The position numbers and the translations under genes are program-made. This document shows, piece by piece, positions 9,455 to 10,263 of a stretch of 19,429 nt of DNA. The notes under the pieces were generated by a model. It worked only from the letters and a program-made list of their open reading frames with translations. It did no database searches and was not told where the DNA came from. Each line of letters opens with the position of its first letter. The first letter of the stretch is position 1. Source of the DNA: an uncultured Saprospiraceae bacterium (lineage in GTDB: Bacteria > Bacteroidota > Bacteroidia > Chitinophagales > Saprospiraceae); NCBI GenBank assembly GCA_937959095.1, contig CALGLY010000296.1, forward strand, positions 1-19,429, given 5' to 3'.

Positions 9455-10263
9455 ATGAAAAATCAAGTTAAAATATTCATAGCAATGATCTTGGTTTTGA
9501 ATTCTTGCAATTCCAAAAAATCAAAGACTGAATATTCTTCAAACAATATTGGATTAGAACTAAAGAACAATTTATTAAGTGATAAAATCTGGATAGGAAT
9601 ACCTACTCCATATGAAATTAAGAATACCAATAATAAAGAGTATTTTATAGAAGAAGTAGATACCGAATCAAAGCGAATAGTAAAGAAAGACAAAAACCAA
9701 TACTTCATACTAGTAAAAAGAGGCGGAAAACATAGTATTTCAATATTAAATAGGGCGAAGGCAATTATAATAAGAAAGGAAATAGAAGGAAAATATTTAC
9801 CAAATCTAATTCCATTTCTCTGTGGAGCAACAGGAGGCAAAATAGGGATGAAACAGTTATCGTCCTGTATTGAAAGAGGAATAGTAGTAACTTCTGTAAA
9901 CTATGATATTGATATTAGATATAAAGTTAAAGAATTTGGCTACCCTTCTAAGATTGTAAATTACTATAAATCAGCATTTTGTACAATTGACTGATGTTCA
10001 AATTTTTAGTACTTAAAACCAGCAATTTTTTAACTAAAAACGTTCAACCTTAGAAGAATAGCCAAGAATTTGAATTAGTAATTTTTGATAAAAGAGGAAA
10101 ATCAATAATCACTAAATCCGAGTCTGAATATTTTAATACGGAGCAAATCGAACACTTACTAAAATTAAAAACTGGAGATAGATTTTACTTAGAAAAAATC
10201 ATAGTTGAACGATTAGACAAAAGAAATGAAGAAGTAAGAATAATGAGTTTTGAAATACTATAA
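9455..10263 (+). pseudogene. GldM C-terminal-like lipoprotein gene disrupted by a small element
   Basis: The 5' part (161 codons to 9937) has a lipoprotein-like signal (LVLNSC, C18). Its layout recalls the last domains of GldM: a strand-rich first domain, then GATGGKIGMKQLSS, GIVVTSVNYDIDIRYKVKEF. At 9938 a 126-bp element begins; 18 foreign codons follow and then a TGA at 9992-9994, giving a 179-aa product today. The 3' part reads on in another frame from 10072: ELVIFDKRGKSIITK, EQIEHLLKLKTGDRFYLEK, RIMSFEIL, stop at 10261-10263. Deleting the element plus one 8-bp target copy (134 bp) joins both parts in frame as VKEF|ELVIFD, giving 224 residues. The gene is markedly more AT-rich than its neighbours, which hints at transfer. 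The GldM relation is my reading of pattern, not a search result. Confidence 0.8.
9938..10063. mobile_element. 126-bp MITE inserted in the GldM-like gene
   Basis: Terminal inverted repeats are GGCTACCCTTCTAAGATTG (9938-9956) and, on the minus strand from 10063, GGCTATTCTTCTAAGGTTG, identical at 16 of 19 positions. The direct repeat AAGAATTT stands immediately outside both ends (9930-9937 and 10064-10071). The interior is AT-rich with stops in every frame that I checked and no transposase. An 8-bp duplication and ends starting GGCT would suit mobilisation by an IS1595-type transposase; that assignment is inference. Confidence 0.85.

Follow-up and report, generated by a model that had tools for sequence, protein, structure and literature searches.

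The DNA considered here, referred to as the window, is a 19,429-nucleotide stretch of contig CALGLY010000296.1 from an uncultured Saprospiraceae bacterium (assembly GCA_937959095.1, here G000), a metagenome-assembled genome (MAG) of 857 contigs that is 74% complete. On its plus strand a gene whose putative product is a lipoprotein bearing a GldM C-terminal domain is interrupted by a small mobile element. The 5' part of the gene (9455..9937, plus strand, 161 codons) opens with a lipoprotein-like start recognised by eye, and the 3' part (10072..10263, plus strand, 63 codons and a stop) carries the GldM C-terminal domain (PF12080, GldM_4th). Between them, the range 9930-10071 comprises a 126-bp element (9938..10063, no strand assigned), encoding no transposase, together with an exact 8-bp duplication, AAGAATTT, on its left (9930..9937) and right (10064..10071). 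The element is bounded by terminal inverted repeats, GGCTACCCTTCTAAGATTG on the left (9938..9956, plus strand), followed by TAAA to give TGTAAA at 9955-9960, and GGCTATTCTTCTAAGGTTG on the right (10045..10063, read on the minus strand), which match at 16 of 19 positions. A recount reproduced all three properties ascribed to the element in the initial annotation, namely its length, its inverted ends and its exact duplication.

The open frame now present (9455..9994, plus strand) is 179 amino acids long and stops inside the element, which encodes its last 18 residues. Removal of the element and one copy of the duplication (134 bp) yields a single 224-residue frame, as stated in the initial annotation. 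The GldM_4th profile scores 25.9 bits with the 3' piece alone, does not match the 5' piece, and rises to 41 bits with the rejoined protein over residues 149-222, spanning the junction at 161/162. Among 60 related genomes, the only strong orthologue outside the element's own genome lies in a genome of the same genus (G002:C478; G001 and G003 belong to this genus too); it is 58% identical and uninterrupted, and in the DNA alignment gaps at the junction, the placing of which is free within a few bases, total exactly 134 bp. Since its gene neighbourhood differs from that of the window, its orthology rests on sequence. A search of a large protein database returned three matches to the rejoined protein, one of them the window's own truncated frame; the other two, P0122 and P0124 (86% and 60% identical when aligned), run uninterrupted through YKVK(E/T)FELVIFDK. 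The empty site sought in relatives is therefore present in G002, and the outcome feared in the initial annotation, of orthologues carrying the 126 bp as coding sequence, did not occur. The element has been inserted into the gene, leaving the lipoprotein without its GldM C-terminal part. This insertion is later than the split from G002, and to that extent its earlier description as recent holds, with nothing more implied by the word.

Bacterial miniature inverted-repeat transposable elements (MITEs) are short, gene-free, and have inverted ends and a target-site duplication. The window element is alike in all four respects and is a MITE, well supported and as such ordinary, for which the MITEs described in a report on Porphyromonas gingivalis (PMC4596501) offer a comparison. 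It differs from such elements in its ends, of pattern GGCTAYYCKTCTAA (hereafter window-type ends), its 8-bp duplication, and its likely partner, a transposase of the Pfam family DUF6399. Its inverted ends rank best among the 159 cases of exact 8-bp direct repeats found 60-300 bp apart in the window, the runner-up matching at 11 of 19 positions, and the best inverted ends in 100 first-order Markov windows reached 14 of 19. The whole element was found once in its own genome. In a DNA search of 60 genomes nothing but two partial matches to its interior, 33 and 37 bases long, turned up besides the window, and comparison of its interior with 14 other elements gave no score beyond those of 50 interior shuffles each, and so no sign of kinship.

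The further copies anticipated in the initial annotation were found as ends and not as whole elements. With up to three mismatches the pattern of the ends has 21 matches in the own genome and its reversal, serving as control, has 6; a widened pattern with up to two mismatches gives 20 against 0, and in the same genus 12 against 1 (G002), 1 against 0 (G003) and 0 against 1 (G001). Exact 8-bp repeats flank three of six own-genome end pairs (contigs C296, C343 and C380), while a fourth (C246) repeats 7 of 8 bases and two (C229 and C536) have no repeat; in G002 one pair of five has an exact repeat and another one of 7/8 bases. Four own-genome contigs (C326, C669, C516 and C536) carry an end less than 100 bases from the contig end, as expected of a repeat. 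Because the ends recur in the own genome, and related ends in full-length insertion sequences of other genera described below, the second feared outcome, of ends found nowhere else and no empty site, did not materialise either.

So far, this family of ends has been seen in relatives belonging to one taxonomic family. A stricter end pattern is present in 7 of 150 Saprospiraceae genomes, and a 23-base pattern, with no match in viral contigs, recovered 86 stretches in the genome_contigs collection from four MAGs (Phaeodactylibacter mag.14 and mag.15, and uncultured Saprospiraceae). When each of 94 perfect ends in these relatives was joined to the inward partner with the fewest mismatches, flanks not being consulted, 15 proved partnerless, 4 lay at an edge and 72 distinct pairs resulted, with element lengths peaking at 113-115 bp. 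An exact 8-bp repeat flanks 53 of the 72 pairs, and 57 have a repeat with at most one mismatch, compared with 0 of 71 when the flanks were displaced by 20 bases; the 53 duplications represent 51 different 8-mers. In Phaeodactylibacter mag.15, different MITEs of unlike interiors adjoin one another (L072:1023-1295, L152:718-961, L121:2310-2655), with a single copy of an identical or almost identical 8-mer between neighbours (GCATCTCC three times in L072), as if new elements had inserted at the duplication of older ones. Across 398 genomes of the taxonomic family, ends of the window element's own subfamily were found in five (own genome 1, G153 1, G708 1, G750 4, G777 36), with control counts of 0 in all those listed. 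MITEs with such ends have exact duplications in G750 and G708 (AGTTTTAC and TTATAATT) and none in G153. All ten listed of the 36 ends in G777 (contigs C72, C95, C102, C139, C162, C182, C217, C266, C284 and C293) break off 50-54 bases inward at a contig end, a pattern pointing to a high-copy long element lost from the assembly.

The candidate autonomous partner of the MITE emerges from full-length elements in other genera. One of these (L153, 1689 bp) is bounded left and right by window-type ends and contains a pair of overlapping open reading frames (ORFs), the larger of which (ORF2) belongs to DUF6399 (PF19936; E 9.3e-43, 146.2 bits against a cut-off of 35.4), a family listed in Pfam as of unknown function and here encoded between window-type ends. 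Searching the 398 genomes with a full-length DUF6399 protein gave matches in nine and three more full-length elements, L184 (1680 bp), L186 (1693 bp) and L187 (1690 bp, with one stop in ORF2 and one end altered), assigned to DUF6399 by their match to protein P0054, L153 having been assigned by Pfam; G777 gave no match despite its 36 ends. Relative to ORF1, ORF2 is in the -1 frame in all four elements, with T_TTT_TTG in phase within the overlap, so that, judging from the sequence, a -1 frameshift at U_UUU_UUG apparently joins both ORFs; three of 120 listed homologues are fused in one frame of more than 500 residues. ORF2 has 2864 homologous proteins at E <=0.001.

Target duplications accompany these insertion sequences in part. 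Among the three copies readable on one contig only L184 has one, AAGAAATT on both flanks, and L186 and L187 have none, whereas for L153 it is unreadable because the element begins at the first base of its contig. In contig-broken copies, four of four ORF1-side ends could be paired with an ORF2-side end by a shared 8-mer (the L153 genome yielding GTGTGGCA and ATTAAGTA, and G006 yielding CCCAGTTT and AGAAAAAA). G139 has five ORF2-side ends, for three of which the loci examined offered no counterpart. Overall, full-length copies show 8-bp duplications in five cases and none in two. In a 26-base comparison the left and right ends of the window element are both nearest to one end of L186 (23/26 and 20/26, respectively), and when 19 bases are compared an end from G006 comes nearest to the left one (17/19). 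In other collections, DUF6399 occurs in four plasmid records (the two cyanobacterial plasmid genes inspected had no recognisable ends), had no match in phages and none confirmed in viral contigs; a screen of the phylum at E 1e-20 returned 0 of 395 genomes, and being blank everywhere is no evidence of absence. None of 5.39 million papers, a set to which preprints, most subscription journals and the ISfinder collection do not belong, names DUF6399, and as far as titles and abstract starts go none deals with this family or with Saprospiraceae MITEs.

Conserved residues D144, D198 and E443, a DxxH motif, and a fold predicted to be RNase H-like and to include a helical insertion suggest that DUF6399 is a transposase of the DDE (Asp-Asp-Glu) type. 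The predicted structure, for which a model built from full-length homologues was used (an earlier model from alignment A1 was poor, with a predicted local distance difference test score, pLDDT, of 74.4 and a predicted template modelling score, pTM, of 0.56), is closest to the ISCth4 transposase of the IS256 family. The published description of ISCth4/IS256 includes DDE residues, an all-helical insertion domain, a C/DxxH motif, 8-bp duplications and subterminal TGTAAA (PMC7780238). As far as that description goes, the DUF6399 elements share the 8-bp duplications (found also in the MITEs) and the DxxH motif and may share the DDE site and the helical insertion, which are predicted, and TGTAAA is subterminal in the left end of the window element and both ends of L184 and L186. 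It is absent, however, from the ends of L153, L187 and G006 and from the right end of the window element, and DUF6399 differs further in its 10% identity to ISCth4 in the structural alignment and in the two ORFs with their apparent -1 frameshift. Among five proteins, one reached 14.2 bits with the NCBIfam profile IS256_Zn_var (cut-off 150) and no IS256 profile was among the Pfam matches, and a PDB sequence search with the DUF6399 profile gave two weak matches, to a DNA-binding domain only.

Taken together, these observations make it probable that the MITE was moved in trans, most likely by a DUF6399 transposase, into the GldM-type lipoprotein gene. By analogy with DDE transposases that have a helical insertion domain, a transposase supplied in trans would bind both inverted ends of about 20 bp, cut them at the outer GGC and join them to the target strands at an offset of 8 bp, so that the 8-bp duplication would arise on repair; in the window the insertion truncated the lipoprotein. 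In relatives, the protein is encoded by the insertion sequences of 1.68-1.69 kb, with their two ORFs apparently joined by frameshifting. Weighing against this account, no DUF6399 gene was found in the element's own 74%-complete genome, for which reason we infer that a DUF6399 protein cuts and joins window-type ends and moved the window copy; the element may still be active in this genome, as the initial annotation suggested.

The same absence favours mobilisation by another transposase family with 8-bp duplications and similar ends, such as ISL3 or IS256, the ends of the DUF6399 elements then reflecting distant kinship. ISL3 elements make an 8-bp target duplication, and this family was the first guess as partner for that reason. 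The own genome holds an ISL3 remnant and G003 an intact ISL3 transposase, both of which speak for it. By eye the order D, D, DxxH, helical stretch, E is similar in ISL3 and DUF6399. The ISL3 loci, however, have no match to the end pattern with fewer than four mismatches and the ends of the intact one differ by eye, whereas DUF6399 genes do sit between window-type ends, so that this alternative appears unlikely. At the level of proteins, DDE_Tnp_ISL3 (PF01610) scored 14.1 bits in one of five (P0015; cut-off 23), the other four being unlisted, and a profile comparison of ISL3 with DUF6399 gave a probability of 6% (E 0.0063, 78 columns). The ISL3 partner was rejected, the own-genome remnant and three loci elsewhere lacking window-type ends.

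Repeat-like hairpin DNA, a palindrome of the REP (repetitive extragenic palindromic) or attC kind with no transposon involved, finds some footing in the partly palindromic ends (GGCTACC..GGTTGCC), in palindromic copies of a single end that the own genome contains (C421 and C756) and in a DNA fold z-score of -3.2 for the element, yet it is very improbable in view of the exact duplication, the clean empty site and the 53 duplications at 72 pairs in relatives. Slightly less credible still is the reading that the repeats in this coding region arose by chance or as an artefact of assembly, for which the fragmentation of the MAG may be adduced, given that control windows do not exceed 14/19 and that the homologues lack exactly the inserted length.

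Insertion of a MITE is in itself ordinary, and what is new is the link to DUF6399, by which the ends lead to a testable function for a Pfam family catalogued without one. We lean towards the broader view that DUF6399 proteins are the transposases of an insertion sequence family in its own right, as yet undescribed, marked by a helically interrupted DDE site, the U_UUU_UUG frameshift, 8-bp duplications and GGCTAYYCKTCTAA ends, which seeds its home genomes with many same-end MITEs of unrelated interiors, even as neighbours inserted at one and the same 8-bp target. Such a family would provide a prokaryotic relative of the helical-insertion transposases for study, together with hundreds of small substrates and numerous empty sites that are dated, and would explain recurrent breaks in these genome assemblies.

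Further observations concern other repeats in the own genome. Within the right end of another MITE, on contig C246 (4465-4512; L015:1625-1672), lies a 48-bp insert with palindromic ends (GAACGCGAAAT..ATTTCGCGTTC, boundaries by eye) and CTTAG on each side, possibly a second, smaller mobile element. The ISL3-family remnant mentioned above is the C-terminal part of a transposase (L042:1257-1427, contig C383). On contigs C421 (L006, near 1501) and C756 (L014, near 206), a single end motif, lacking a partner end, is enclosed as the loop between the arms of a short palindrome (GGGGAGG..CCTCCCC or similar).
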